64,000 nt of DNA from a virus. A program made the position numbers and the translations under genes. Each line of letters starts with the position of its first letter. The first letter of the stretch is position 1. Below are positions 4,247-63,301 of the stretch, piece by piece. A model generated the notes under the pieces. The model saw only the letters and a program-made list of their open reading frames with translations, was not told the origin of the DNA and searched no databases. The stretch spans positions 1-64,000 of IMG/VR virus record IMGVR_UViG_3300034102_001642. One strand, 5' to 3'.

Positions 4247-6424
4247 ATGCCGCTAAACATTTTTGATGGTTCCAGTTGGAATCCTTTAAAAAAGATTCAA
4301 GTCCACGATGGAACATCTTGGAATGATTCTAAAGCAGCCTATGTATGGAATGGGTCTGAGTGGAAAAACTTACTAGGAATAGTTCCAGTTAATACAGTTT
4401 TACCAACCCTTTCTTTACAAGGCTCATCATTTCTTTATGCTGCAGAACAAACAGTTTTAACAACAAATGGCACTTGGGAAAATTCGCCAACAACATTTGA
4501 ATATCAATGGCAAAAAGCTCCATATCCTACATCAAATTGGTCTAACATACTTGATAAAACATCAAGTTCTTTGGCATTAACTGAAGATGAATGGGATTCA
4601 CAACAAACATTAAAATATGTTGGTTACGCTGTTAGATGTAAAGTTTCGGCTACTAATGCAGATGGCAAAAATTCAGGAGATATATACACTCTATCAAGCC
4701 CAGTAATTGCTCCCGCCAACCTAGGAGATATAACTGTTAATGTTGTATCAAATGGTGTAGTAGAATTTACATGGGAAAAGGTAAGGGGTGCTAATGATTA
4801 CTATATACAATACCAAGGACCAGAAGTAGCACTTACAGAAGTTACAAGTATGGTAAACAATACAGATTCTGCAAAGGGAGTTTATTCTACATCAGGAACT
4901 ACATGTAAGTTTACAATTGACACAGGCTCTGCTTCGGGAACTTTAGGAATATTAATTAACCCAATGAATACATCAAACGTTTCTGGAACGTCATTAAGCG
5001 GATACGGTAAAAATGCATCGGTTACGGATTTGAAACCAAATAAACCTTCTGTTGCAGCAGGAATGCTTTCTTATAGTTACGGAGGCAAGATGGTTTGGTC
5101 TGCTAATAACATAACTGTAACTAGTTGGACAGTGTACAATGATGGTTCGGTATATGCAACCTCTGCATCCTCAAGTCCTAGTACTAATTTCTTAGACATA
5201 GATCGACCTGGTGCGTCTCCAGATACATTCGGGTCTTTTGTAGTATTAATTATTGGAACATCTCCAAGATTTTCAGAAACCGCTTGGCTTTCTTCTCCAG
5301 CTTTAACTATAACATATCCACCAGCACCAAATGACTGGTACTGCACAACTTCTATTAATGGTGGAGGCGTGGGTAATTGTGATTATACAAAACCTGGTTT
5401 TGATAACTCTGGCTCTGGCAGTGGCTTCTCTCGCCAGTGTACATTTGGAACAGCTTATCCAGCATGTCAATCAACTAATCCTCCACCAGCTAACACATGG
5501 AAATGCACAACATCTAGTCCTGGAGCTGGCGTAGGTAATTGTAGTTACACCGATCCTGGTTTTGATAACTCTGGCTCTGGCAGCGGTTATACTCGCCAGT
5601 GCACACTTGGAACAAGCTATCCAGAATGTCAATCAACTAACCCAGCTCCCGTACAAACTAACACATGGAAATGCACAACATCTAGTCCTGGAGCTGGCGT
5701 AGGTAATTGTAGTTACACCGATCCTGGTTTTGATAACTCTGGCTCTGGCAGCGGCTACTCTCGCCAGTGCACATTTGGAACAAGCTATCCAGAATGTCAA
5801 TCAACAAATCCCGCAACAACATTTGCGCCACCGTTCTTCCCACCAGAGTTTTTTTCTCCACCAGAGTTTTTTTCTCCACCAACTTTTGGAGGCAAAGGAC
5901 CCCTACCAACATTTGCGCCACCGTTCTTCCCACCGTTCTTCCCACCAGGATTTAAGGGTAAATGTTTAGCACCAGATGCTTTGGCTCTATCTAAAAATGG
6001 TTTTGTTAAAGCAAAAGATATACGAGTTGGAGACGAGCTAATATCTATTAGTAAATCAGACATAAGCTTTGATTCTGTACTAAAAGATAAAACATCACAA
6101 AGCTTATCAGAAAATATTCAATTTGAAAACGTTAAGGTAATTTCTGTAACAGAAAAAACTTCAACGCTAATTGGATTTAATGAAATAGGGAAGAACTATT
6201 CTATTACTCAGCCTATATTTATTAAGAATTCGGGCGGTATAGAATACAGAAATGCTGGAGATATCAATATTGGGGATGTCATTATAAGTATAGGCTTGGA
6301 TGGCGTGGTTTCAGATATCGTAGTAGAATCTATTGAGACGGATAACTTTGAGTCAATAGTTTATGATATTAGAACCTCTCCACAACCTTGGTTTATTGTT
6401 AATTCTACTATAGCCATAGCATAA
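4247..6424 (+). CDS. tail fibre protein with Cys-rich repeats, Pro/Phe-rich linker and C-terminal Hint domain
   Basis: The 725-residue protein starts with fibre-type DGSSWNPLKKIQVHDGTSW units. Ig/fibronectin-like domains follow to about residue 360. Then come three tandem repeats of about 48 residues (363-525), each with four cysteines (WxC, GNC, RQC, YPxC). A Pro/Phe-rich linker (about 527-572) contains PPFFPP and one PPGF. From Cys573 the chain is a Hint domain: block A is CLAPDALAL...DIRVGDEL, and it ends VYDIRT...FIVN-S at Asn719-Ser720, leaving a six-residue tail. The 147-residue Hint segment has no histidine at all, including the usual block B histidine (QP instead of HP). It may self-cleave or splice, or be a structural remnant. 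Confidence 0.75.
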   Translation: MPLNIFDGSSWNPLKKIQVHDGTSWNDSKAAYVWNGSEWKNLLGIVPVNTVLPTLSLQGSSFLYAAEQTVLTTNGTWENSPTTFEYQWQKAPYPTSNWSNILDKTSSSLALTEDEWDSQQTLKYVGYAVRCKVSATNADGKNSGDIYTLSSPVIAPANLGDITVNVVSNGVVEFTWEKVRGANDYYIQYQGPEVALTEVTSMVNNTDSAKGVYSTSGTTCKFTIDTGSASGTLGILINPMNTSNVSGTSLSGYGKNASVTDLKPNKPSVAAGMLSYSYGGKMVWSANNITVTSWTVYNDGSVYATSASSSPSTNFLDIDRPGASPDTFGSFVVLIIGTSPRFSETAWLSSPALTITYPPAPNDWYCTTSINGGGVGNCDYTKPGFDNSGSGSGFSRQCTFGTAYPACQSTNPPPANTWKCTTSSPGAGVGNCSYTDPGFDNSGSGSGYTRQCTLGTSYPECQSTNPAPVQTNTWKCTTSSPGAGVGNCSYTDPGFDNSGSGSGYSRQCTFGTSYPECQSTNPATTFAPPFFPPEFFSPPEFFSPPTFGGKGPLPTFAPPFFPPFFPPGFKGKCLAPDALALSKNGFVKAKDIRVGDELISISKSDISFDSVLKDKTSQSLSENIQFENVKVISVTEKTSTLIGFNEIGKNYSITQPIFIKNSGGIEYRNAGDINIGDVIISIGLDGVVSDIVVESIETDNFESIVYDIRTSPQPWFIVNSTIAIA
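5334..5820 (+). repeat. three tandem Cys-rich coding repeats
   Basis: Three in-frame repeats encode the units W-C...GNC-Y...PGFDNSGSGSG...RQC...YP-C. Repeats 2 and 3 are almost identical at base level with a period of 168 bases (AACACATGG at 5492 and 5660). Repeat 1 is more diverged. The near-identity of 2 and 3 suggests recent duplication or recombination. Confidence 0.85.
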
Positions 6425-11307: not shown

Positions 11308-12513
11308 ATGGCAGTAGGTAAGAAATTCGGTAAAAAGGCACAGGCATCAAATGACTTTTTGGAGCCAATGGCACCAACGTCAGTAACAGCAACAAACGTA
11401 CCAGCAAATCGTGCATATAATAATGGACGGGCTGACGTAACGTTTTCTTTGCCAGAAAATTCACCTGCTGCCACATCCTTTACAGTAACATCCTCCCCAG
11501 GATCATTTACTGCTTCAGGAGCATCTTCTCCAATATCTGTAGTTGGTTTACAATCAAATACAGCATATACATTTACAGTAACAGGAACAAATGCAGTAGG
11601 AACTGGCGCAGCATCTGCTGCCTCAAATAGCATTACTGCAACAACTGTACCTCAAGCTCCACAAAGCCCAAGCGCAACTGCAGGAGTTAACCAAAACACA
11701 ATTACTTGGACACAACCAGCAAATGGTGGATCTGCAATAACCAACTATTATGTTGCAGGTAATGATGGAACAAGTGGAAATACAACAGCCCTAACAATAA
11801 CTATTGCAGATACTGCTAATACATCTCAGTATTATAATGTTTATGCAGATAATGCTAATGGTCGGTCAGCAGCCTCAGATAATACAGCAACTATTACTAC
11901 TCAGGCACCGTTCTTCCCACCGTTCTTCCCACCGTTCTTCCCACCAGGGTTCTTTGCCCCACCAGGGTTCTTTGCCCCACCAGGGTTCTTTGCCCCACCA
12001 GGGTTCTTTGCCCCACCAGGGTTCTTTTCCCCACCAGGATTTAAGGGTAAATGTTTAGCACCAGAATCAGTTATTTTCACTAATACTGGATGGGTAAAGG
12101 CTAAAGATATTAAAGTTGGGGATCAAGTAGTAACAGTTGATAGCTCTAATATTAATCTTGAATCTATAACCGCAAATAAGACATCTGGACAATTAGATTC
12201 AACAGTTAAGTTTACAAATTCAGAAGTTATTTCAGTAACAGAAAAAACTGGAAAGCTAGTTGGATTTAATTACAGAGGTAAAGACTACTCAGAAACTCAG
12301 CCTTTATTTGTAAAAACCTCAAATGGTATTACCTATAAGAATGCAGGAGAAATTGAAATAGGAGAAATAATCCTAGGAGTAGATTCAAATGGACTAGTCC
12401 AAGAAACTCCAGTAACCTCAATTGAAAAGGGTGAAGCAGAATCAACTGTTTATGATGTTAGAACATCTCCACAGCCATGGTTTATCGTTAATTCCTTCCT
12501 AGTAATAGCTTAA
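11308..12513 (+). CDS. fibronectin-type fibre protein with Pro-Pro-Gly repeats and C-terminal Hint domain
   Basis: The 401-residue protein has two fibronectin type III-like domains (about 19-110 and 115-198). A linker of about 50 residues follows (200-248), made of FFPP units and five to six PPGFF units. From Cys249 a Hint domain runs to Asn395-Ser396 (CLAPESVIF, DIKVGDQV, VYDVRT, FIVN-S), leaving SFLVIA as the possible C-extein. It has the same length (147 residues) as the Hint domain of the 4247 gene and likewise contains no histidine. Canonical Hint domains use a block B histidine and a penultimate histidine. Downstream lie four prolyl-hydroxylase-like genes. Confidence 0.75.
   Translation: MAVGKKFGKKAQASNDFLEPMAPTSVTATNVPANRAYNNGRADVTFSLPENSPAATSFTVTSSPGSFTASGASSPISVVGLQSNTAYTFTVTGTNAVGTGAASAASNSITATTVPQAPQSPSATAGVNQNTITWTQPANGGSAITNYYVAGNDGTSGNTTALTITIADTANTSQYYNVYADNANGRSAASDNTATITTQAPFFPPFFPPFFPPGFFAPPGFFAPPGFFAPPGFFAPPGFFSPPGFKGKCLAPESVIFTNTGWVKAKDIKVGDQVVTVDSSNINLESITANKTSGQLDSTVKFTNSEVISVTEKTGKLVGFNYRGKDYSETQPLFVKTSNGITYKNAGEIEIGEIILGVDSNGLVQETPVTSIEKGEAESTVYDVRTSPQPWFIVNSFLVIA
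11908..12034 (+). repeat. tandem coding repeats for FFPP and PPGFFA units
   Basis: About three copies of a 12-base unit (CCGTTCTTCCCA) are followed by about five copies of an 18-base unit (CCAGGGTTCTTTGCCCCA). Both are in frame and encode FFPP and PPGFFA. Copies of the 18-base unit are essentially identical, so the array can probably change length by slippage. Confidence 0.9.
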
Positions 12514-12595: not shown

Positions 12596-13309
12596 ATGAC
12601 TACTATAAATGACCAATATGGATTTTCTTCAAAAGAAGAGCTTTTCCCAGGCGTGTGGGTATACAGAGATGTAATTAAAAAAGATTTAGATGTTATTAAT
12701 AGATTAAACACGATAGGAAATTCTGCTAATAAAGAAGGAGATTCCAGATACAATTGGACATTCGGCTTTGTTGGATATAGTGATAGAATACCATCATATA
12801 GAGATTGCGAAGATATTAAAATTGGAGAGATAATTAGTCCAGCTAATGAAACCCAGAAACTAGTTGGAGAATTATGGTCTGATTTAAAAAAAGCACAAGA
12901 TGTGGCAGTTGCAGACTATTGCGCTAAATATAACGTAAAGATGAATTATTGGGAAGTCATGAACTGTATTAGATACGGCAAGGGACAACATTTCCAAGAG
13001 CATGCCGACCATGGATTTTCATATAGTGCTACAGTATCATTAGTTGCTTATGTAAATGACGATTATGCGGGAGGAAATTTATTTTTCCCTAAATTAGGCT
13101 TAGACATTAAGCCAAGAGCTGGTGATTTATATATTTTCCCATCTACTTATTTGTTTTCACATAGAGCAATGCCAGTAGAAGATGGCATGAAGTTTTCTAT
13201 TGTAACAATGCTTGATTATAATGATCATGCTCACAGACAAGAGTTTTTTGAAGCAAGAACCAGATGGCTAGAAGAAGATGCAAAAACTGGCAAGAATTCG
13301 TATGCATAA
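12596..13309 (+). CDS. 2-oxoglutarate/Fe(II) oxygenase, prolyl-4-hydroxylase-like
   Basis: The 237-residue protein has the double-stranded beta-helix core of this family. Iron ligands are His136-x-Asp138 (EHAD) and His189 (FSHR), and Lys199 (GMKF) probably binds 2-oxoglutarate. The strand VNDDYAGGNLFF lies in between. Enzymes of this type use O2 and 2-oxoglutarate to hydroxylate proline or other residues, releasing CO2 and succinate. It is the first of four such genes in tandem, right after a Pro-Pro-Gly fibre. There is no ribosome binding site, and the promoter position implies a leaderless mRNA. The substrate is unknown; a virion protein is the leading guess. Confidence 0.85.
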   Translation: MTTINDQYGFSSKEELFPGVWVYRDVIKKDLDVINRLNTIGNSANKEGDSRYNWTFGFVGYSDRIPSYRDCEDIKIGEIISPANETQKLVGELWSDLKKAQDVAVADYCAKYNVKMNYWEVMNCIRYGKGQHFQEHADHGFSYSATVSLVAYVNDDYAGGNLFFPKLGLDIKPRAGDLYIFPSTYLFSHRAMPVEDGMKFSIVTMLDYNDHAHRQEFFEARTRWLEEDAKTGKNSYA

Positions 13310-14030
13310 AATTAAGGCATATACAATAAGAGATGGCTACGGAGAAGTTTTTCCTCTTTCAATTAAAAGAGATTGGATGGATAACACTTGGGACTCTCAC
13401 GCATACAAATGTTTTCCAGTAGGGCTAACTAATCAGCTTGGCTGGGGAATATCGTTTCCCGAAGATATATCTTTTATATGGGATGGAGTAACGGACAGCA
13501 CCCCAGATCATGTTAAAATTTTATCTGGTGAAAAATATGCTTATTCTGGTAGAGCCAATGCAACTATAAGTTTTAATACAGGAATAATGTTTTCTACTGA
13601 AGAAAATTTAAGTCTTCTATCTATGCCAGTTCCAAATTTATTTATTGACGGTGCCGTGCCTTTTACAACTCTAATAAGCACATCATTTTTTAGAGGAGAA
13701 TTGCCATGTGCTTGGATGATAACCAAGCCAAACGAGGTTATTACAATAAAAGCAGGAACACCTATAATTGCAATATTGCCAATAGATCTAGAGGGCCTAC
13801 AAAACTCAGAAATAAATTTTGATAGCGTAGAATCTTTGCCAGACCCTAAGTTCGATTCAACCGAATACTCTAATGTTATTTACGATTTAAATAGAAAAGC
13901 AGTTTGGTCCAATTTTTATAGAGATGCCGTAGATCATCTTAAAAATGCCATAGGAAGCCATCAAGTAAAAGCTATTAGATTTAAAGTTAATCATGAATTA
14001 AACAGGGGAAATGATATAATAGATAAATGA
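13302..14030 (+). CDS. DUF6065-like protein
   Basis: From the ATG at 13302 (overlapping the previous stop by 8 bases; an alternative start lies at 13278) the product has 242 residues. It is clearly related to the product at 56382. Both share KCFP/NCYP, a W or Y-G-hydrophobic motif, DISFIWDG, a SMPVPN or TMPVPN motif and a Gly-rich beta pattern. This resembles the uncharacterised DUF6065 family. Both copies lie next to a 2OG-Fe(II) oxygenase gene. The beta-rich pattern suggests a jelly-roll or cupin-like fold, but no metal triad is obvious. The function is unknown. Confidence 0.65.
   Translation: MHKIKAYTIRDGYGEVFPLSIKRDWMDNTWDSHAYKCFPVGLTNQLGWGISFPEDISFIWDGVTDSTPDHVKILSGEKYAYSGRANATISFNTGIMFSTEENLSLLSMPVPNLFIDGAVPFTTLISTSFFRGELPCAWMITKPNEVITIKAGTPIIAILPIDLEGLQNSEINFDSVESLPDPKFDSTEYSNVIYDLNRKAVWSNFYRDAVDHLKNAIGSHQVKAIRFKVNHELNRGNDIIDK
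14012..14020 (+). promoter_or_regulatory. extended -10 element for the 14027 gene, leaderless type
   Basis: TGATATAAT ends six bases before the ATG at 14027. It lies inside the end of the upstream gene. The -35 region is weak, so it would rely on the extended -10. Confidence 0.6.
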
Positions 14031-14704
14031 AGCTAGCAAACCAATGGACAGAAGATCAAAAACCAAAATCTATTACTCCGTCTGGATTTTTTGGAAATTC
14101 AACAGACAACATTGTTGAAATTAGAGAATTCCTTACAATAGAAGAACGTAAGAGGCTGATGGATTTTGCCCTCAATAATAAAATTTGGGACATAACAGAA
14201 ACACATAGGGATGCCGATGGTTTAGTTTTATATGACCATAAGGTTTGGGAAGATAGAGTTTGCACATATAATTCTTTAATGGCATCAGACCCATCAATTT
14301 TAGAATTAATTTATAGCATGATAGCAAGACTTAAAATAGAGGTAGACGCATTTTTTAATGTTGATGCAAAAGAAACTGGTCCAGCAATTGTTAGGTGGCC
14401 TGTTGGTGCAAGACAAGAGCCACATGCAGACAAAGAATTTCATTCTGGCCCAGAAAAAGGAAGAGCAAATGATTTTCCTTGGTATGACCTAGCTGGTTTA
14501 TTTTATTTTAACGATGATTATGAAGGTGGAGAATTATATTTCCCACAACATGGAATTGAATTTCAGCCAGTGGCTGGAGCAGCATATTTTTTCCCAGGTG
14601 ACATGAACTATACACACGGGGTAAGACCAGTAAAATCTGGAAATAGATTTACATCTCCATTCTTTTGGACGATACAAAAACATACAGGAGAAAAACAACC
14701 ATGA
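14027..14704 (+). CDS. 2-oxoglutarate/Fe(II) oxygenase, prolyl-4-hydroxylase-like
   Basis: The 225-residue protein has His133-x-Asp135 (PHAD), His197 (YTHG) and Arg207 (GNRF) as the likely iron and 2-oxoglutarate ligands. The family strand FNDDYEGGELYF precedes a PVAGAAYFFPG strand. The N-terminal half (about 30-60) is the helical part seen in prolyl hydroxylase-like proteins. Its ATG overlaps the previous stop (ATGA) and its own TGA overlaps the next ATG, so the cluster is translated as a coupled unit. It differs enough from its neighbours to have its own substrate. Confidence 0.85.
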   Translation: MKLANQWTEDQKPKSITPSGFFGNSTDNIVEIREFLTIEERKRLMDFALNNKIWDITETHRDADGLVLYDHKVWEDRVCTYNSLMASDPSILELIYSMIARLKIEVDAFFNVDAKETGPAIVRWPVGARQEPHADKEFHSGPEKGRANDFPWYDLAGLFYFNDDYEGGELYFPQHGIEFQPVAGAAYFFPGDMNYTHGVRPVKSGNRFTSPFFWTIQKHTGEKQP

Positions 14705-15546
14705 GTGAATTAGAACATGTAGAGCTTTATCCAAAAGTTGATGTTTATAGAAATGTCTTAAAAGACCCAGCACAACTATATGAAGTAATGAACGCTTCAG
14801 AAAAAACTTCAGAAGGAAAGTATTTTTTAAAGACCTGGGATCCTTGGGCTCATTTTGGAACGTATACTCAGAAAAAAGATATAAGAGAAGTTTCTGCAGA
14901 AATTCAATCTACAGAAATGTTTATTAAAGAAAAAGCATTTGTTGAAGAAGTTGAAGCGGCATACAGTAAGGTTATAGCGGACTACATAGAAAGACACAAC
15001 ATCGAGTTGCCAGAAGGCTGGCGATTCAGCGGATCCTCTTATTCTAAATATCATGCAGGAGTTGACAACCTTAAGAGTAAACTTACCATGCAGTATCATA
15101 CAGACCATATAACATCACAAAAAGATATGCCTGGGGATAAATTTTCAATTACCTGCACAATGTATATTAATGATGATTACGATGGCGGAGATATAGAGTT
15201 TTATATTAATGGGCAATTCATTAATCATAAGCCAAAAGCTGGTGACATTTTAGTATTTCCTTCAACAGAGCCATATTATCATGGGGTAAAAACAATTAAT
15301 AGCAATGAGAAATTTTTTGTTAGAAATTTTATAATGACCCCTCACAATGGCACAGAAGAATGGCTTGCCAACCAAAGAAAATTTGGTGCTTACAAATGGG
15401 CAAAAATGGAGCAAGAAAGAATTGATTACGACGATAAAAGAAACATGGTTTATTTTAATGACGGAGTTCCAGTTACATATGAAGAGCATGTTGAAAAGCA
15501 ATTTGGCGTCCCATTTGATGCTGAAAAGGAAAAGGGGATAATGTAA
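14701..15546 (+). CDS. 2-oxoglutarate/Fe(II) oxygenase, prolyl-4-hydroxylase-like
   Basis: The start at 14701 gives an ATGA overlap with the previous gene and 281 residues; a longer in-frame start at 14665 is less likely. Iron ligands are His133-x-Asp135 (YHTD) and His194 (YYHG), with Lys204 or Arg208 as the basic residue. It shares the INDDYDGG and FPSTEPYYHGVK segments with the product at 55235 (PSTEPFYHGVK), so these two are closest relatives in the window. A charged C-terminal extension of about 65 residues follows the catalytic core. Confidence 0.85.
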   Translation: MSELEHVELYPKVDVYRNVLKDPAQLYEVMNASEKTSEGKYFLKTWDPWAHFGTYTQKKDIREVSAEIQSTEMFIKEKAFVEEVEAAYSKVIADYIERHNIELPEGWRFSGSSYSKYHAGVDNLKSKLTMQYHTDHITSQKDMPGDKFSITCTMYINDDYDGGDIEFYINGQFINHKPKAGDILVFPSTEPYYHGVKTINSNEKFFVRNFIMTPHNGTEEWLANQRKFGAYKWAKMEQERIDYDDKRNMVYFNDGVPVTYEEHVEKQFGVPFDAEKEKGIM

Positions 15547-15548
15547 TT

Positions 15549-16301
15549 ATGGAAAGAAATATGGTTATAACTAGACACAAGCCAGATATTGTGCAATATG
15601 ACAACTTCTTAACTCCAGATGAATGTAAATCAATCATTGATGTTCTAGCCATTAAGATGGAAAAAGAACAATTAAAGTGGATGCCAATTTCATTTTATGA
15701 GTCATACTCATCAGGTACTCCAGAGTTAAATGACCCAGACACAATTGCCTGTGGCCTACCAGGAGATTTTTTTGTAGACCTTAGACAAAGAGTTATAGAT
15801 GCTACTGCAGACATGGCTGGTAAAGATCCAGAACAAATGTCGCAGATAAGCTGGCACTCTCAAAGATGGGCACCAGGAGCTTTTGCAAATATGCATTCAG
15901 ACAATACTTCTAATGATGGAGTTTCGGGAGCATTTACTAGAAGTAGATATGCAACTTTTCTTTATTTAAACGATGATTTTGAAGATGGTATTTTAAACTT
16001 TAAGCATGGATTAACAATTGTTCCAAAAACTGGAACCCTAGTAACATTTGCTGGAGGATTCCATAACATGCACGAAGTTACAACAGTTAAAAAATCTATA
16101 AGATACACTCTTGGATCATTCTGGGATGATAGAGAAGAAAGTGATTATCCACAGGAAGTTAGAGATGCTTGGGCGGCAGAACTTGCTGAGGTTAGAGCAA
16201 TGCAAGCAGATGAAGCTATTGAGTGGGAAGACTACAGAAATAAAGGATTAAGAATAACCCCCCGTGGAGAAGTATATCCAGCATCAGAAGTAGAAGGATA
16301 G
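15549..16301 (+). CDS. 2-oxoglutarate/Fe(II) oxygenase, prolyl-4-hydroxylase-like
   Basis: The 250-residue protein has His116-x-Asp118 (MHSD), a distal histidine (His175, with His172 nearby) and Arg185 (SIRY). The strand LNDDFEDGILNF matches the NDDY-GG signature with a changed second glycine. The N-terminal segment YDNFLTPDECKSIID is typical of prolyl 4-hydroxylase-like enzymes. An acidic tail of about 50 residues follows the core. It begins two bases after the previous stop. Confidence 0.85.
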   Translation: MERNMVITRHKPDIVQYDNFLTPDECKSIIDVLAIKMEKEQLKWMPISFYESYSSGTPELNDPDTIACGLPGDFFVDLRQRVIDATADMAGKDPEQMSQISWHSQRWAPGAFANMHSDNTSNDGVSGAFTRSRYATFLYLNDDFEDGILNFKHGLTIVPKTGTLVTFAGGFHNMHEVTTVKKSIRYTLGSFWDDREESDYPQEVRDAWAAELAEVRAMQADEAIEWEDYRNKGLRITPRGEVYPASEVEG

Positions 16302-16302
16302 C

Positions 16303-16953
16303 ATGCAAAACAATGTAGAGTTTAAGCAATTTATAATGTTTGATCTTAAAGTTTTGGGAACAGATATATGGTACTGGGAAAATGCATTAAGCTTTCCAGA
16401 ACATTTAAAAGATTTTATAGACAAAATAGACCAAGAGCCAGAATCATATTCCAGAATATCTAAATGGGAAAATTGGACTGCTAGCAATGATTCTAGTCTA
16501 GTATACGGTAAAACAAAAACAATAAATGCGTCTGCTTTAAAAAAAACTACTGGATCTGACATGGTAGATAAAAAAACTCTTTATATTGCTAATAGTTTTT
16601 CAATGGCTTTTCAAATGTGCACCGATAGATATTTGGAATCTAGAAGGTTAGATAAAAATAAATATAACCTAAATCTTGATCGCATAACAATAAAAGCCTG
16701 GAATGAAGGACAATCAATGGGCCCACATTTTGATGGACAAGATGGAAATAAAGATTTAGCATTTTCTTTAGTAGCATATATTAATGATGATTATGAGGGC
16801 GGAGAGATTAATTTCCCAAACCATAATGTGACTATAAAGCCAAAAGCTGGAAGCCTAATAATGTTTCCATCACAAGAGCCTTACATACACGAAGTAAAGC
16901 CTATTGTGTCTGGTACTAGATACATGAGCCCAGCACACGTATATATTAAGTAG
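16303..16953 (+). CDS. 2-oxoglutarate/Fe(II) oxygenase, prolyl-4-hydroxylase-like
   Basis: The 216-residue protein has His142-x-Asp144 (PHFD), His196 (YIHE) and Arg206 (GTRY), the full ligand set, with INDDYEGGEINF between them. It begins one base after the previous stop; a second in-frame ATG at residue 12 is possible. It is the last oxygenase before the collagen-like fibre gene, whose promoter starts at its 3' end. It completes a tandem set of four oxygenases and one DUF6065-like gene. Confidence 0.85.
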   Translation: MQNNVEFKQFIMFDLKVLGTDIWYWENALSFPEHLKDFIDKIDQEPESYSRISKWENWTASNDSSLVYGKTKTINASALKKTTGSDMVDKKTLYIANSFSMAFQMCTDRYLESRRLDKNKYNLNLDRITIKAWNEGQSMGPHFDGQDGNKDLAFSLVAYINDDYEGGEINFPNHNVTIKPKAGSLIMFPSQEPYIHEVKPIVSGTRYMSPAHVYIK

Positions 16954-16973: not shown

Positions 16974-18086
16974 ATGAGCACAGGAGTAAATGGCTGGAGA
17001 TTTCCAGACTACACAGACACCCCAGACGTACCTAGAGACCTAGGAAACCTTGGCGCTGACATTGCGACATTCATTGCCGCTAATCCAGGCCCACAGGGCC
17101 CTTCAGGCACCTTAGCGGTAGGTACAGTAACTACTGTTAGTGCTGCTACACCAGCATCAGTTGTAAATGTAGGAACTGCATCTAATGCTATATTGAATTT
17201 AACATTACCAAGAGGTGTTGATGGAATTATTGGTGGTCCTGGTCCCTCTAATGTTTTAAATATTGGAACTGTTGTTGAAGGCGGCTCTGCTAGCGCAACA
17301 ATAACTGGAACCAGTCCTTCACAAACATTAAACTTAGTTCTTCCCCAAGGTCCGCAAGGCATACAAGGACCAACTGGACCTCAAGGTCCAGCCACAGTAG
17401 CTGTTGGAACAACTACAACTGGTGCGGCTGGAACAAATGCCTCAGTTGTTAATACTGGAACGACAGCAAACGCTATTTTTTCATTTACAATACCAAGAGG
17501 CGCAACTGGCGCAACTGGACCAACTGGACCTCAAGGCATTCCTGGAGACAGCGCAACAATTGACCCAATAGCAACAACAATAAGTTTAAATATACCGACA
17601 TCTTCTGGATACGGAGTAAACTCTAACTGGTACCCATTTGCAAACAATCTTTATTCAATGGGGCAGCCAACAGATGTCCCAAATGGAGTTTCATCAAATA
17701 GATTCTGGAAAACAATATACTCTAATACTGGAACCATTAATACTTCAGATGAAAGATTAAAAACTGATATTGTTACATCTCCACTTGGCCTTGATTTTAT
17801 AAATAATTTAAATCCCGTAAAATATAAATTCCTTGAAGGTGGAAAAGAAGTAGTTGAGGGAGACATAGTTTCTATTCCTGGATCAAGAACACATTATGGA
17901 CTTATTGCCCAAGAAGTAAAACAAGCATTAGATGAATCTGGTGTTGGAGATTTTGCTGGTTGGGTAAAAATGGATATGTCACAAGAAGATTCTATGCAAG
18001 GCCTAAGATATGATCAGTTTGTGGCACCATTAATTAAAGCCGTACAAGAGCTTACAGCGAGAGTCAAAGCCCTAGAAGAGAAGTAA
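16974..18086 (+). CDS. collagen-like tail fibre protein with S74 intramolecular chaperone
   Basis: The 370-residue protein alternates Gly-X-Y segments (GPQGPSG near 37; GPQGIQGPTGPQGPA near 124-138; GATGATGPTGPQGIPGDSA near 178-196) with repeated beta units (ASVVNVGT..NAILNLTLPRG). The C-terminus has the S74/intramolecular chaperone pattern SDERLKTDI...NLNPVKYKF...YGLIAQEVKQAL (about 258-320), with the start of the cleavable domain at Ser-Asp. Such domains guide trimer folding and are then released by autocleavage. The Gly-Pro-X content makes it a plausible substrate for the adjacent hydroxylases. Confidence 0.85.
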   Translation: MSTGVNGWRFPDYTDTPDVPRDLGNLGADIATFIAANPGPQGPSGTLAVGTVTTVSAATPASVVNVGTASNAILNLTLPRGVDGIIGGPGPSNVLNIGTVVEGGSASATITGTSPSQTLNLVLPQGPQGIQGPTGPQGPATVAVGTTTTGAAGTNASVVNTGTTANAIFSFTIPRGATGATGPTGPQGIPGDSATIDPIATTISLNIPTSSGYGVNSNWYPFANNLYSMGQPTDVPNGVSSNRFWKTIYSNTGTINTSDERLKTDIVTSPLGLDFINNLNPVKYKFLEGGKEVVEGDIVSIPGSRTHYGLIAQEVKQALDESGVGDFAGWVKMDMSQEDSMQGLRYDQFVAPLIKAVQELTARVKALEEK

Positions 18087-56083: not shown

Positions 56084-56389
56084 ATGTCTGAAAGAGCCGA
56101 AGTAAAAAGAGATAATGCTAAAGCACAAAAAAATAGCGGGCGAGGAGATTACCAAAAGGGTGATGCTAGGTGGAATCAATTTTTAGTTGATTATAAGGAG
56201 GCGGGATCTACATTTACATTGAATAAAGAGGTTTGGTCTAAGATCTGTACAGATACATTTAAAGTAAATAGAGATATGCATCCAGCCTTAAAAATTATTA
56301 TAGGTAAAGAAAGCAAGGTGCGACTTGGTATAATAGAGTGGGCAATTTTAGAAGAATTAATTAAATGCTGGGAGGATAATAATGCATAA
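56084..56389 (+). CDS. putative PD-(D/E)XK-type nuclease, small
   Basis: The 101-residue protein has KNSGRGDYQKGDARWNQFLVDYKEAGSTFTL, where GDA and VDYKEA resemble the Asp and x-K positions of Hjc/PD-(D/E)XK nucleases. A VWSKICTDTF helix, a PALKIIIG strand and a final helix follow. Holliday junction resolvases of this size exist in phages. The catalytic match is partial, so it could also be an inactive relative or an unrelated conserved phage protein. It lies between an oxygenase gene and a DUF6065-like gene. Confidence 0.45.
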   Translation: MSERAEVKRDNAKAQKNSGRGDYQKGDARWNQFLVDYKEAGSTFTLNKEVWSKICTDTFKVNRDMHPALKIIIGKESKVRLGIIEWAILEELIKCWEDNNA

Positions 56390-57080
56390 TGTAGATGTTT
56401 ATATAGATGACATATCTTTTCCGACAGCAAAAATTAGACCACTAGAACTTCAAAGAGAATGGATGCATTCATATGTTTATAACTGCTACCCAATAGCAAT
56501 GGCAAATACTTTTGGATATGGTATTTATTTTGAACACGACATATCTTTTATTTGGGATGGCTCTAAAGATGACGGAGCAGTTGGTATTATTGGTAAAGAA
56601 AATATTTGGGTTGGTAGAGGAGAAGGAACGGCAAGCTTTGCCACCAATTTAATATTTAAAACTGATGAAAACACTAGTATGCTCACAATGCCAGTTCCAA
56701 ATGAATATTTAGATGGAGCACAAGTTTTAAGTACAATATTGTCTACATCAGTATTTACTGGTACATTTACTATTGTTTGGAAACTTGATACTCCCAACAA
56801 AGAATATTTTGTTCCAGCTGGAACAAATATAGCATGTGTACTTCCAATATCGATTGGATCAATCCAGGGCTCAATTTTTAATATTAAGAATTCTAAATGG
56901 CCATTTGAAAAAATTCAAGATAGTGAAGAATACATGAGCTATTTAAAAGAAAAAAATTCTGAAGGCATTAGGCCCAGAATGTATAAAAAGGGAATTGATC
57001 ATACAGGCAAAATAATTGGTAAACATGAAGTAGATAAAATAATTTTAAACGTGAACTATGAAAATGAACAGGAAAATTAA
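56382..57080 (+). CDS. DUF6065-like protein
   Basis: The 232-residue protein is a clear paralogue of the 13302 product: NCYPIAMANTFGYGIYF, HDISFIWDG, MLTMPVPN and the same strand order. It is the closest other member in the window. Both copies sit next to a 2OG-Fe(II) oxygenase, and this one has the small nuclease-like gene in between. The ATG at 56382 lies inside the end of the upstream gene. No catalytic residues are apparent; a partner or substrate-presenting role for the oxygenase is a guess. Confidence 0.65.
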   Translation: MHNVDVYIDDISFPTAKIRPLELQREWMHSYVYNCYPIAMANTFGYGIYFEHDISFIWDGSKDDGAVGIIGKENIWVGRGEGTASFATNLIFKTDENTSMLTMPVPNEYLDGAQVLSTILSTSVFTGTFTIVWKLDTPNKEYFVPAGTNIACVLPISIGSIQGSIFNIKNSKWPFEKIQDSEEYMSYLKEKNSEGIRPRMYKKGIDHTGKIIGKHEVDKIILNVNYENEQEN

Positions 57081-59368: not shown

Positions 59369-59646
59369 TGAAATGTTTTAATTCTGAATGTCCTAAAGAT
59401 TTTACTCCCAAGACACATAATCAAAAATATTGTTCTGATGAGTGTTGCAGGATTGCAACAAATAAAAGAATTATGCAAAAGTATTACGAAAAAAAAGCTA
59501 TTCAAAATGGTGCTCCAAGAAAATGCAAGGGGTGTCCAGGATTTTTAAGCAGGTACAATACCGAAACTTATTGCTCTAAATGCATAAAGTCTAGACGCTT
59601 TAAAGATAAAAAATATTTGATGGGCATAATAGATGACATTGGCTAG
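59368..59646 (+). CDS. zinc-finger protein
   Basis: The 92-residue protein has two zinc modules: CFNSEC...YCSDECC (about 3-27) with a following helix (RIATNKRIMQKYYEKK), and CKGCPGF...YCSKC (about 53-72). The stop/start overlap (TAATG) couples it to the nuclease. Similar Cys-rich proteins appear near phage recombination or endonuclease genes, where they may recognise DNA. The function is unknown. Confidence 0.6.
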   Translation: MKCFNSECPKDFTPKTHNQKYCSDECCRIATNKRIMQKYYEKKAIQNGAPRKCKGCPGFLSRYNTETYCSKCIKSRRFKDKKYLMGIIDDIG

Positions 59647-60199
59647 TTTAGTAAAGACTAAGGCATCTAAAGTGCTTGGCATTGATGCATCTACAAACTC
59701 AATAGCTTTTTGTTTAATGGAAAATGACGTGCCATTAAAATGGGGAAAGATTAACCTATCTGGAAATGATATTTATGAAAAAATTTACGATGCAAAAATT
59801 AAAATGAATGTGATGCTAGATGAACTACGGGCAGATTATATTGCAGTTGAGGGTGCAGTTTTAGTTAGATCGGCAGATGCCGTAATAAAACTGTCTTATG
59901 TATATGGGGTTGTTATTGCAGAGCTGATGTCAACTGGGGCTAAAGTTATAACAATAGCCCCAACTTCATGGCAGGCCTATATCGGTAACAATAATCCTAC
60001 TAAGCAAGAAAAGGCGGACATTAGATTGGCTAATCCAGGATACGCAGACTCATGGTATAAAAATCAATTAAGGAATATGAGAAAGCAAAGAACAGCGGAT
60101 TACTTTAATAAGAAGTACAATCTGTCAGTATCAGATTTTGATGTAGCAGATTCATTTGGAATTGCCCATTATGCCAATAAGGTTTTGACACAACGATGA
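59633..60199 (+). CDS. RuvC-like Holliday junction resolvase
   Basis: The 188-residue protein has the RuvC/RNase H fold pattern: Asp18 in LGIDASTNSIAF, Glu73 in IAVEGAV, a KVITIAPTSWQAYIG strand-helix, and Asp170 and Asp173 in FDVADSFGIAHYA. These acidic residues would hold two magnesium ions. RuvC-like enzymes cut four-way junctions made in recombination and packaging. It overlaps the upstream gene by 14 bases, and the next gene starts in an ATGA overlap. Confidence 0.85.
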   Translation: MTLASLVKTKASKVLGIDASTNSIAFCLMENDVPLKWGKINLSGNDIYEKIYDAKIKMNVMLDELRADYIAVEGAVLVRSADAVIKLSYVYGVVIAELMSTGAKVITIAPTSWQAYIGNNNPTKQEKADIRLANPGYADSWYKNQLRNMRKQRTADYFNKKYNLSVSDFDVADSFGIAHYANKVLTQR

Positions 60200-60342
60200 A
60201 GCTATATCAAAATAAAGACTGGCTTTATAACAGATACAATATTCAAAAAAAGACTATTATGGAAATATCAAAGGAATGTAAGGTATCTGCAATGACCATA
60301 CAGAGATATATAGATAAATTTGGTATAAAACCCAAGCGTTAA
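60196..60342 (+). CDS. small helix-turn-helix protein
   Basis: The 48-residue frame starts in an ATGA overlap and ends at TAA 60340-60342. It has the pattern DWLYNRYNIQKKTIMEIS (helix), then KECKVSAMTIQRYIDKFGI (helix-turn-helix). Short homeodomain-like helix-turn-helix units of this kind are found in phages as putative regulators or as separated terminase/recombinase domains. The stop lies at the edge of the consensus promoter for the terminase block, so it might act there. Confidence 0.6.
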   Translation: MKLYQNKDWLYNRYNIQKKTIMEISKECKVSAMTIQRYIDKFGIKPKR

Positions 60343-60371
60343 TTGACATTTTGGTTGACTAGAAGTATAAT
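60343..60371 (+). promoter_or_regulatory. perfect consensus promoter, leaderless type
   Basis: TTGACA, a 17-base spacer, and TATAAT, both boxes perfect. The -10 ends six bases before the ATG at 60378 and there is no ribosome binding site in the gap. Confidence 0.9.
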
Positions 60372-60377
60372 CATTTA

Positions 60378-60917
60378 ATGACAGAAATAGAGCCATCCGT
60401 ACACTTTGACAAGATGAATAAAGTTGTTTCAGAGTTGTTAAAAGGTAATTCAGCTACACAAATTGCCACCATAACTGGTATGAACAGAAAAGATGTTTTA
60501 GAGTATATTGATGAGTGGAAGTCTGTGGTCCACAATGACACTAATGTTAGAGAACGTGCTAGAGAAGCTCTAATGGGGGCAGATCAACACTACGACATAT
60601 TAATTAAAGAGGCATGGAAAACAGTAGAGGATGCCGATACTCAGGGTCAACTTAATGTAAAATCTGGAACACTAAAACTAATTGCAGACATAGAGGGTAA
60701 AAGAATTGCAATGTTACAAGCAGTAGGAGTTCTTGAAAACAATGAGATTGCATCGCAAATACTAGAGAACGAAAGAAAGCAAGAAATGTTGGTTGGCATA
60801 CTAAAAGAGGTTACGTCTAGCTGTAATCACTGTAAGGTGGAAGTTGCTAAAAGATTGTCTCAAATTACTGGAATTGTAGAGCCTATTATAATTTCTGAGG
60901 ATATTGCTAATGTTTAA
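60378..60917 (+). CDS. putative terminase small subunit
   Basis: The 179-residue protein has an N-terminal helix-turn-helix (LLKGNSATQIATITGMNRKDVLEYI, about 18-42) followed by long helices (LIKEAWKTVEDADTQGQLNVKSGTLKLIADIEGKRIAMLQA). This fits small terminase subunits, which bind phage DNA for packaging. It lies one gene upstream of the large subunit and starts a consensus-promoter transcript. Only one oxygenase gene lies in between. The role is inferred from fold and place. Confidence 0.6.
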   Translation: MTEIEPSVHFDKMNKVVSELLKGNSATQIATITGMNRKDVLEYIDEWKSVVHNDTNVRERAREALMGADQHYDILIKEAWKTVEDADTQGQLNVKSGTLKLIADIEGKRIAMLQAVGVLENNEIASQILENERKQEMLVGILKEVTSSCNHCKVEVAKRLSQITGIVEPIIISEDIANV

Positions 60918-61509
60918 TAAAAATGGATTCCTTACTTTGGGGGAAGACATTTTTGTATATAAAAATTTTGTTACAGATAAAGAGTGTGAAATTTTAATAC
61001 GGGAAGCTATATCCGTTCCAGAAGATAAATGGAAACAAAACTTTAATGATCATGGGCTGGGAAACGAAAGGTCAATGATTTGGACAGAAGAGCTTATTCC
61101 AATACATGAAAGAATTAAATGTATTTTAGAAAAAGAAGTTAATTTGGGTATAGACAGAGGCTTAGTTAGGATGAAGCAAGGAACTAAAGGTGCAATTCAT
61201 TCAGATAATCACGACTCATTGCACATTAGAGATGCTAATAAATTAGTTAAGGAAGATGAAGATTTTGATTTAGGAGAGAATACAATTGCTGGAATAATAT
61301 TGTATTTTAATAATTTTGATGGCGGAGACCTGTTATATCTTGATCAAGGAATTATCTACCACCCAGAAAAAGGTGACCTTGTAATACATAGTGCAGAAGA
61401 ACACTGCATACATCAAGTACAAGAATTAAAAAGCGGTATAAGGTATTTCCATTCCAATAACTTGTTTCAGTACATACGAGTTCCAAAAGGATTTAATAAT
61501 GTCGCTTGA
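60910..61509 (+). CDS. 2-oxoglutarate/Fe(II) oxygenase, prolyl-4-hydroxylase-like
   Basis: From the ATG at 60910 the product has 199 residues. Iron ligands are His97-x-Asp99 (IHSD) and His168 (CIHQ), with Arg178 (GIRY) for 2-oxoglutarate. FNNFDGGDLLY stands in for the usual NDDYEGG strand. The HSD loop is followed by an unusually long insert (about 104-123). It is the most diverged oxygenase of the window and lies between the small and large terminase genes, overlapping both. That makes a packaging- or head-related substrate possible. Confidence 0.8.
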   Translation: MFNKNGFLTLGEDIFVYKNFVTDKECEILIREAISVPEDKWKQNFNDHGLGNERSMIWTEELIPIHERIKCILEKEVNLGIDRGLVRMKQGTKGAIHSDNHDSLHIRDANKLVKEDEDFDLGENTIAGIILYFNNFDGGDLLYLDQGIIYHPEKGDLVIHSAEEHCIHQVQELKSGIRYFHSNNLFQYIRVPKGFNNVA

Positions 61510-63301
61510 TTTTTCAGAGTTTATAGATATACTAGATGGCGACGAGTTTGAGCAAAAACCAGTAGACCTACGGACTTTTGTAACAAGCCCAGATTATTTG
61601 GCACTACCACCACTTTCAGAAAATCAATATACGCTTATTGAAAAAAGTTCTCAAATATACAAAGAGTCTACTCTTATTAAGCTTTATGGAGAAGAATTAG
61701 GAAAACATATGTTTAATCAAACATGTGTCGAGGTTATTGCTCAATTAGGTAAAGGCTCTGGAAAAGATTACTCATCAACAATTTCTGTAGCTTACATTGT
61801 TTATTTACTGTTGTGCCTTAAAGATCCAGCAGCGTATTATGGAAAACCGCCAAAAGATGCCATAGATATATTAAATATTGCTATCAACGCACAGCAGGCC
61901 AACAATGTTTTTTTTAAGGGATTTAAAATGAGAATTGAAAACTCTCCTTGGTTTGCTGGTAAGTATACAGACAAAGCTTCAGAAATTAAATTTGACAAAT
62001 CCATAACAGTTCATTCTGGACACTCAGAAAGAGAAGCGTGGGAAGGATACAATGTTATGGTGGTAATTCTAGACGAGATATCTGGATTTGCAACAGAAAG
62101 TACCAGTGGTCACGATCAAGCTAAAACAGCCGATGCAATATATGACATGTACAGGGCGTCAGTTGATTCACGTTTTCCAGATGTAGGCAAGGTAATCCTG
62201 CTTTCTTTTCCTAGATTTAAAAATGATCCGATACAAAAATTTTATGAATCAGTCATAGCGGAAAAAGAAACAATTGTTAGGACAGAGATATTAAAATTAG
62301 ATCAAGACTTGCCAAACGGTACAGAAGGCAATGAGTTTGAAGTGGCCTGGGAAGAAGATCATATAGTTTCTTATGTTTACCCCAGAGTATTTGCGCTCAA
62401 AAGACCAACATGGGAAGTAAATCCAACAAAAAAAATAACAGACTTTACTGTTGCTTTTCACAAAAATGCGCCAGACGCACTCGGTAGATTTGCCTGTATG
62501 CCAACAGATGCAGTAGATGCATTTTTTAAATCCAGAGAAAAAATTGAAAGGGCATTTAATCAAGGTAGTTTGGCTGTAGATAAATTTGGAAGACTTGAAG
62601 AATGGTTTAAACCAGACCTAGAAAAAGATTATTTTATACATGTAGACTTAGCTCAAAAGCACGATCATTGTGCGGTTGCAATGGGCCATGTAAGTAAATG
62701 GGTTGACATAAAGGTAACAGATACATACTCCCAACCAGCTCCAATTGTAAACATTGATGCGGTTAGATTTTGGACTCCGACCCCAGACAAATCAGTAGAT
62801 TTTACAGAGGTAAAAGACTACATATTGTCTTTAAGAACAAGAGGGTTTAATATAAAAACTTGCACATTTGATAGATGGAACTCTCACGACATGATGCAAC
62901 AATTAAAAAAATACGGTATCAATACGGAAATTCTTTCGGTATCTAAAAAACACTACGACGATATGGCAATGGTTGTTTTAGAAGAAAGATTATCTGGCCC
63001 ACATATCCCGCTATTGATAGACGAATTACTTCAATTAAGAATTATGAGAGATAAGGTTGACCATCCAAGAAAAGGATCAAAGGATTTGGCGGATGCTGTA
63101 TGCGGAGCAGTATATAATTCAATTAGCAGAACTAGAATGCGTAGAGACGAAGAAATAAAAATTCATGACTATGAATCTATGAGCTATGACAACGACTTTG
63201 GAGTCAGCGACGGTGAAGTAGAAAATGTATACAACATGATTAGGGCACCAAGAATGCCTGAAAGCTTAGCAAGATCAATAGAAAATATGGAGATAATATG
63301 A
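61499..63301 (+). CDS. terL: terminase large subunit
   Basis: The 600-residue protein has an ATPase domain with Walker A QLGKGSGKD (about 83-91) and Walker B VVILDEI (about 188-194). Its C-terminal RNase H-like nuclease has acidic residues in FIHVDLAQKHDHC (about 379), TFDRWNSHD (about 456) and KDLADAVCGAV (about 527). It powers DNA packaging into the capsid and cuts genome ends. Its distance of about 41 kb from the portal gene is unusual unless the genome is circularly permuted or the window is part of a larger genome. Confidence 0.9.
   Translation: MSLDFSEFIDILDGDEFEQKPVDLRTFVTSPDYLALPPLSENQYTLIEKSSQIYKESTLIKLYGEELGKHMFNQTCVEVIAQLGKGSGKDYSSTISVAYIVYLLLCLKDPAAYYGKPPKDAIDILNIAINAQQANNVFFKGFKMRIENSPWFAGKYTDKASEIKFDKSITVHSGHSEREAWEGYNVMVVILDEISGFATESTSGHDQAKTADAIYDMYRASVDSRFPDVGKVILLSFPRFKNDPIQKFYESVIAEKETIVRTEILKLDQDLPNGTEGNEFEVAWEEDHIVSYVYPRVFALKRPTWEVNPTKKITDFTVAFHKNAPDALGRFACMPTDAVDAFFKSREKIERAFNQGSLAVDKFGRLEEWFKPDLEKDYFIHVDLAQKHDHCAVAMGHVSKWVDIKVTDTYSQPAPIVNIDAVRFWTPTPDKSVDFTEVKDYILSLRTRGFNIKTCTFDRWNSHDMMQQLKKYGINTEILSVSKKHYDDMAMVVLEERLSGPHIPLLIDELLQLRIMRDKVDHPRKGSKDLADAVCGAVYNSISRTRMRRDEEIKIHDYESMSYDNDFGVSDGEVENVYNMIRAPRMPESLARSIENMEII

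Follow-up and report, generated by a model that had tools for sequence, protein, structure and literature searches.

Introduction

2OG-Fe(II) oxygenases with unknown substrates are numerous in aquatic phages. The functions of the phage oxygenases grouped under PF13640 and PHROG_61 have not been specifically investigated, and cyanophage oxygenases have been proposed to lower 2-oxoglutarate (PMC9602691). In prolyl hydroxylases, binding of macromolecular substrates has been linked to the betaII-betaIII region and a finger loop, and small-molecule 2OG enzymes tend toward shorter loops than the betaII-betaIII substrate loop of prolyl hydroxylases (PMC7864055). Here we describe an oxygenase gene lying between the two terminase genes in a window of 64,000 nucleotides (positions 1 to 64,000 of the IMG/VR virus record IMGVR_UViG_3300034102_001642) and its relatives in other uncultured phages.

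Results

A sequence-only reading of the window had described a diverged oxygenase that overlaps both terminase genes, and the arrangement is confirmed. The gene occupies 60910-61509 (plus strand, as are its motif codons, the ribosome-binding sites, the overlaps and both terminase genes; 199 aa) and was assigned as a 2OG-Fe(II) oxygenase with a prolyl-hydroxylase-type double-stranded beta-helix from its ORF, PHROG and Pfam matches, alignment, profile, model and fold. The ORF is intact, with ATG at 60910 and TGA at 61507-61509; it shares 8 nt (ATGTTTAA, 60910-60917, holding its start codon and the terS stop codon) with the small terminase-like gene (60378-60917) and 11 nt (ATGTCGCTTGA, 61499-61509, holding the terL start codon) with the large terminase gene (TerL, 61499-63301, assigned from PHROGs), such that terL codons 3-4 contain the oxygenase stop codon. 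The small terminase-like gene was assigned from PHROGs, by a match to phrog_9507, a family whose function is listed as unknown, and from homology to Streptomyces phage genes; its protein is 48–52% identical to a Streptomyces phage gene product for which records are split between “terminase small subunit” and “hypothetical protein”. In one such record, that of TunaTartare, terL and the gene annotated as small subunit overlap, leaving no gene between them. TerL is approximately 60–63% identical to that of Streptomyces phages and G+C is 37%, a combination which suggests that the host may be a low-GC actinobacterium. Just upstream of terS is a 48-aa ORF (60196-60342), helix-turn-helix-like in appearance and shorter than the ORF length limit used.

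The likely ribosome-binding site of the oxygenase, GAGGA (60897-60901), is inside the 3′ end of terS, and that of terL, AAAAGGA (61485-61491), falls in the oxygenase P-K-G-F codons, each with a duplex of -5.6 kcal/mol. In most filled junctions, including that of the window, the oxygenase 3′ end supplies the likely terL ribosome-binding site, and anti-SD duplexes of -4 kcal/mol or lower were found for terL at 31 of 39 filled junctions versus 21 of 36 empty ones. That the KGF codons serve terL fits the absence of a KGF tail in homologues located after TerL; given that a homologue outside the slot (L208) ends in PKGI, the C-terminal tail may be under a protein-level constraint of its own or may be a relic. 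The oxygenase is probably co-translated with the terminase, judging from the overlaps and ribosome-binding sites, and possession of its own promoter and terminator is unlikely because of the overlaps of 8 and 11 nt on its two sides, for which reason “accessory cassette” is a safer term than classical moron.

A kept iron site, a long insert after HSD and a changed core strand had also been proposed, and each holds up. The first two iron ligands, in H97-S98-D99 (61198-61206), and the third, H168 (61411-61413), are invariant in 33 aligned homologues; the basic 2-oxoglutarate-binding residue expected about 10 residues past the last histidine is R178 (61441-61443), which is at least 90% conserved in the same alignment and is lost in L010. 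The insert, residues 100-126 (61207-61287), was delimited by alignment, model and entropy as a conserved helix-containing segment running from the HxD strand to the next core strand. Spacing from HxD to Y-x-N is 35 residues, compared with 16–27 in six other oxygenases of the window, and because all 33 aligned homologues have the long segment it is a trait of the subfamily and not a peculiarity of this gene. It is more conserved (mean entropy 1.88) than N-terminal residues 36-62 (2.53). In the core strand, YFNNFDGG stands in place of the Y-x-NDDY/F or YLNNSYDGG of the paralogues.

The protein matches PHROG_61 at E=6e-7 and scores 23.1 bits against PF13640, below the 27-bit gathering cut-off, with 26 of the 33 family members matching PF13640 at E<=0.001; its place in the 2OG-Fe(II) superfamily therefore rests on active site and fold, its score being too low for PF13640 membership. 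Values of dN/dS of about 0.05–0.15 in homologue pairs (oxygenase dS 0.13–0.82) indicate purifying selection, and this together with the PHROG, profile and Foldseek matches establishes a real gene as opposed to a chance ORF. A tblastn search of INPHARED with the window oxygenase returned no match, and when one pattern from the family alignment, an insensitive probe, was run against 84,980 genomes of bacteria and archaea, no relative was confirmed.

The AlphaFold (AF2) model (pLDDT 95.8) has a helix at residues 101-110 and the next core strand from residue 119, and the double-stranded beta-helix is supported by both the predicted model and Foldseek. The nearest fold among solved structures, by profile and by Foldseek with the predicted model, is that of prolyl hydroxylases: the family profile matched solved prolyl 4-hydroxylases at E=1e-9, and Foldseek against the PDB gave E of about 1e-9, the best 50 of 1493 matches being mostly prolyl hydroxylases, alongside a small number of collagen lysyl/prolyl-3 hydroxylases and of other oxygenases. 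Matches by fold or profile included Chlamydomonas P4H, PBCV-1 vCPH, B. anthracis P4H, the P. putida EF-Tu hydroxylase and human PHD2. The insert sits where prolyl hydroxylases have their betaII-betaIII substrate loop. Because of this fold and the conserved segment after HxD, protein hydroxylation is favored, and the enzyme most probably hydroxylates a protein, with prolyl specificity only suggested.

Slot occupancy was compared among 105 distinct TerS/TerL loci from IMG/VR (IMG/VR loci have L numbers here), which were collected best-first from capped, redundant contig sets so that proportions are not population frequencies. An oxygenase lay between the two genes in 30 loci, the slot was empty (a TerS-TerL gap below 60 nt) in 61, a homologue 34–37% identical in BLAST followed TerL in 6, and 8 had other spacing or cargo. 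The empty junctions listed are close-packed or overlapping, and no pseudogene remnants were seen in the eleven listed junctions lacking an oxygenase. It had been reasoned that absence of the gene from close relatives with the same terminase region would suggest a casual insertion. Such absence is what was found, since the closest relatives, with TerS 96% and TerL 98–99% identical, have a precise empty site; in the 110-kb contig of one empty-slot relative (L013) the best oxygenase match reached only E=2.4e-21 and was of the paralogue class, with no close copy elsewhere. A one-off insertion is nonetheless contradicted by the recurrence of the subfamily in the same slot: a position-blind search placed 42 of 44 distinct homologues between terS and terL, a count that takes in two loci with tandem copies and one truncated by the contig edge. 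Slot state changes at least 18 times on the 105-row TerL tree and 9 times in the 35-row close clade, although TerL itself recombines and part of the 18 changes may reflect recombination of the tree gene.

Other contents of the slot are varied. Tandem oxygenase pairs occur at L124:568-1805 and L093:4814-6011, and the second oxygenase of L124 starts with residues resembling the TerL N-terminus. Other cargo consists of ORFs of 50–66 aa, and the short ORFs in two of these slots matched no Pfam family; three loci (L107:3499-6000, L115:3516-6011 and L147:458-2980) hold a protein of about 830 aa, which in L107, the one scanned, is 833 aa long with HAD, nucleotidyltransferase and glycosyltransferase-61 domains. 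At L208:1292-6580 a homologue outside the slot follows two dioxygenase-like ORFs and adjoins probable glycosyl- and methyltransferase ORFs (named by eye), in a record whose own TerL is 57% identical. A short search of the open-licence literature for genes between terS and terL did not find this slot, and returned insertions among other late genes of Arthrobacter phages. A homing endonuclease was considered as an explanation of the insertion and set aside, since the Pfam search showed no nuclease domain.

Several observations bear on exchange at the locus. TerS of L104 and L114 differ at dS 0.009 and their TerL at dS 0.10, whereas their oxygenases are only 61% identical with dS 0.90, an allele swap with matching flanks. 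The window is mosaic: terS at about 60640-60880 is 95–98% identical to L025, a filled slot whose oxygenase is 47% identical, while the empty-slot relatives L021, L018 and L055 match at mostly 97–100% identity over the 3′ part of terL and over 59560-60520. On the oxygenase tree the window gene groups with L095; on the TerL tree the window groups with L018, L021 and L055. Since mosaic flanks, allele swap and tree conflict match its expected traces, gain, loss and replacement of the oxygenase would most simply be explained if homologous recombination ran through the terminase genes on either side. Alleles and junctions derive from metagenome assemblies, and a chimeric assembly as source of the window allele is unlikely, given that four other IMG/VR contigs carry this allele between the same flanks.

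Elsewhere in the window, a run of five oxygenase genes at 12596-16953, with a single DUF6065 gene (13278-14030) among them, lies immediately upstream of a gene (16974-18086) whose collagen-like product ends in an S74 chaperone domain. A second DUF6065 gene is at 56382-57080, and each of the two has an oxygenase gene close by. The proteins encoded at 4247-6424 and 11308-12513 have proline-rich stretches, of (A/S)PPGFF type in the second, ahead of C-terminal domains that look alike in the two; the second also has a weak intein-splicing match below cut-off; both are candidate prolyl hydroxylase substrates. The phage also carries a cobalamin adenosyltransferase gene (PF01923, 58066-58587).

Discussion

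Patterns detected are best accounted for, with a probability of roughly 0.55, by an accessory oxygenase cassette that sits in an insertion-tolerant slot between terS and terL, is exchanged by recombination, and probably encodes a protein (prolyl) hydroxylase whose substrate is not terminase. The cassette would occupy this slot in uncultured phages related to the Streptomyces phages of Stanwilliamsviridae, oxygenase-rich actinophage relatives that would carry it as a plug-in accessory gene. Its start would overlap the terS stop and so leave the operon unbroken, its C-terminal PKG(F) codons would form the likely terL ribosome-binding site, and the first codons of terL would provide its stop; recombination through the conserved flanking terminase genes could then add, remove or replace it. 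The enzyme may hydroxylate a protein, plausibly at proline, in the host or in the virion but other than terminase; a capsid or tail protein is possible, though the capsid component suggested earlier gains no support from gene position. The gene, catalytic residues, predicted fold class, purifying selection, presence and absence, allele swapping, slot preference and overlaps were computed directly, recombination as the mechanism and co-translation with terminase are inferences, and the nature of the substrate (protein or prolyl, and which protein) is the least certain part of the explanation, as fold class does not fix substrate. Counting against the accessory reading, the near-exclusive link between subfamily and slot could be a functional tie to packaging, the transferase neighborhood of L208 would fit a glycan or small-molecule substrate, and L010 lacks R178.

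A possible though doubtful alternative is that the oxygenase tailors a small molecule or glycan, helping to alter, in the course of infection, a metabolite or the surface of the host. This would be consistent with the neighbors of the L208 homologue, with the glycosyltransferase-61 fusion among slot cargo (scanned in L107; L115 and L147 hold proteins of like size), and with rapid allele turnover, but the out-of-slot context is a single one and the long conserved segment after HxD with a prolyl 4-hydroxylase-like fold fits a macromolecular substrate better.

An improbable alternative has TerS, TerL or another partner in packaging as the hydroxylated protein, with packaging adjusted by the modification, for instance to the disadvantage of competitors or satellites borrowing the terminase. 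Action on a terminase subunit had been suggested from position, and slot fidelity, overlapping and probably co-translated genes, and purifying selection would all agree with it. Slot fidelity would also follow from movement of the gene through homologous flanks and by no other route. Terminase is disfavored as substrate by relatives that have nearly the same terminases and no oxygenase beside them, and by slots filled with unrelated cargo, with one homologue lying outside the slot; relatives sharing the terminase pair thus do not conserve the oxygenase even at 98–99% TerL identity. Among the top Fisher-ranked TerS and TerL residues listed, none clearly tracked slot state in a phylogeny-aware comparison of 10 supported pairs, which has low power. 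Quite unlikely is the further variant in which the junction is a dedicated variable slot and its main cargo, the slot-restricted oxygenase subfamily, acting on a terminase or head partner, is allele-diversified to make packaging phage-specific, for instance against satellites or co-infecting phages borrowing the terminase. If true, a slot functionally tied to terminase would add a new level at which packaging is controlled; present evidence favors an accessory gene.

2OG oxygenases can act on bases, and an AlkB- or TET/JBP-like enzyme modifying or repairing phage DNA or nucleotides would agree with the names of the matching PHROGs 2297 (“DNA endonuclease”) and 274 (“DNA endonuclease V”). There is little likelihood of this, and the DNA substrate once suggested from position is not upheld, given that AlkB, TET and JBP were absent from the best 50 of 1493 PDB fold matches, nearly all of the top ones being prolyl (protein) hydroxylases, and from the 7 profile matches, and that the endonuclease name was probably carried over from earlier annotation. 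In cyanophage S-RIM50 a homologue 29% identical to the L151 oxygenase (NC_031242.1, 19701-20144) is listed by RefSeq as “DNA endonuclease” and by GenBank as “hypothetical protein”, and the RefSeq name is a possible source of the misleading name of PHROG 2297; a BFVD entry from S-RIM50 with a match to the model, which may not be the same gene, is named as P4H alpha subunit domain-containing. Least probable of all is an effect on host metabolism with no specific substrate, through lowering of 2-oxoglutarate as proposed for cyanophage oxygenases: large records of relatives (81–113 kb) do have 10–18 family-profile matches, others having few, but the conserved subfamily-specific segment beside the active site argues for a defined substrate.

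Returning to the accessory cassette, the phage is of a freshwater type and its oxygenase looks swappable, parked in the packaging operon without being part of the packaging machine. It is an example of a gene inserted in an essential overlapping operon with the likely ribosome-binding site of the next gene within its own codons, and the natural presence/absence and allele-swap pairs in near-identical flanks make the function of this subfamily comparatively easy to test.

Among known systems, the cassette resembles moron-type accessory genes in its insertion between conserved late genes, its precise empty sites and its presence or absence in close relatives, and differs from them in same-slot allele swapping, in overlaps that probably leave no room for a promoter and terminator of its own, and in having the likely ribosome-binding site of terL within its codons. 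With the PF13640/PHROG_61 oxygenases of cyanophages and uncultured Caudovirales it shares the HxD...H...R site, the fold, many copies per genome and exchange between phages; it departs from them in its sub-cut-off score (23.1 vs 27 bits), its longer conserved segment after HxD, and the near confinement of the subfamily to the terS-terL slot. Its best profile and fold matches are the prolyl 4-hydroxylases of B. anthracis (3itq/5hv0), PBCV-1 (vCPH, 5c5t) and Chlamydomonas (2jig) and the P. putida EF-Tu hydroxylase (4iw3), to which it is approximately 12–18% identical in fold alignments with TM-scores of about 0.6, a likeness that is of the predicted model.
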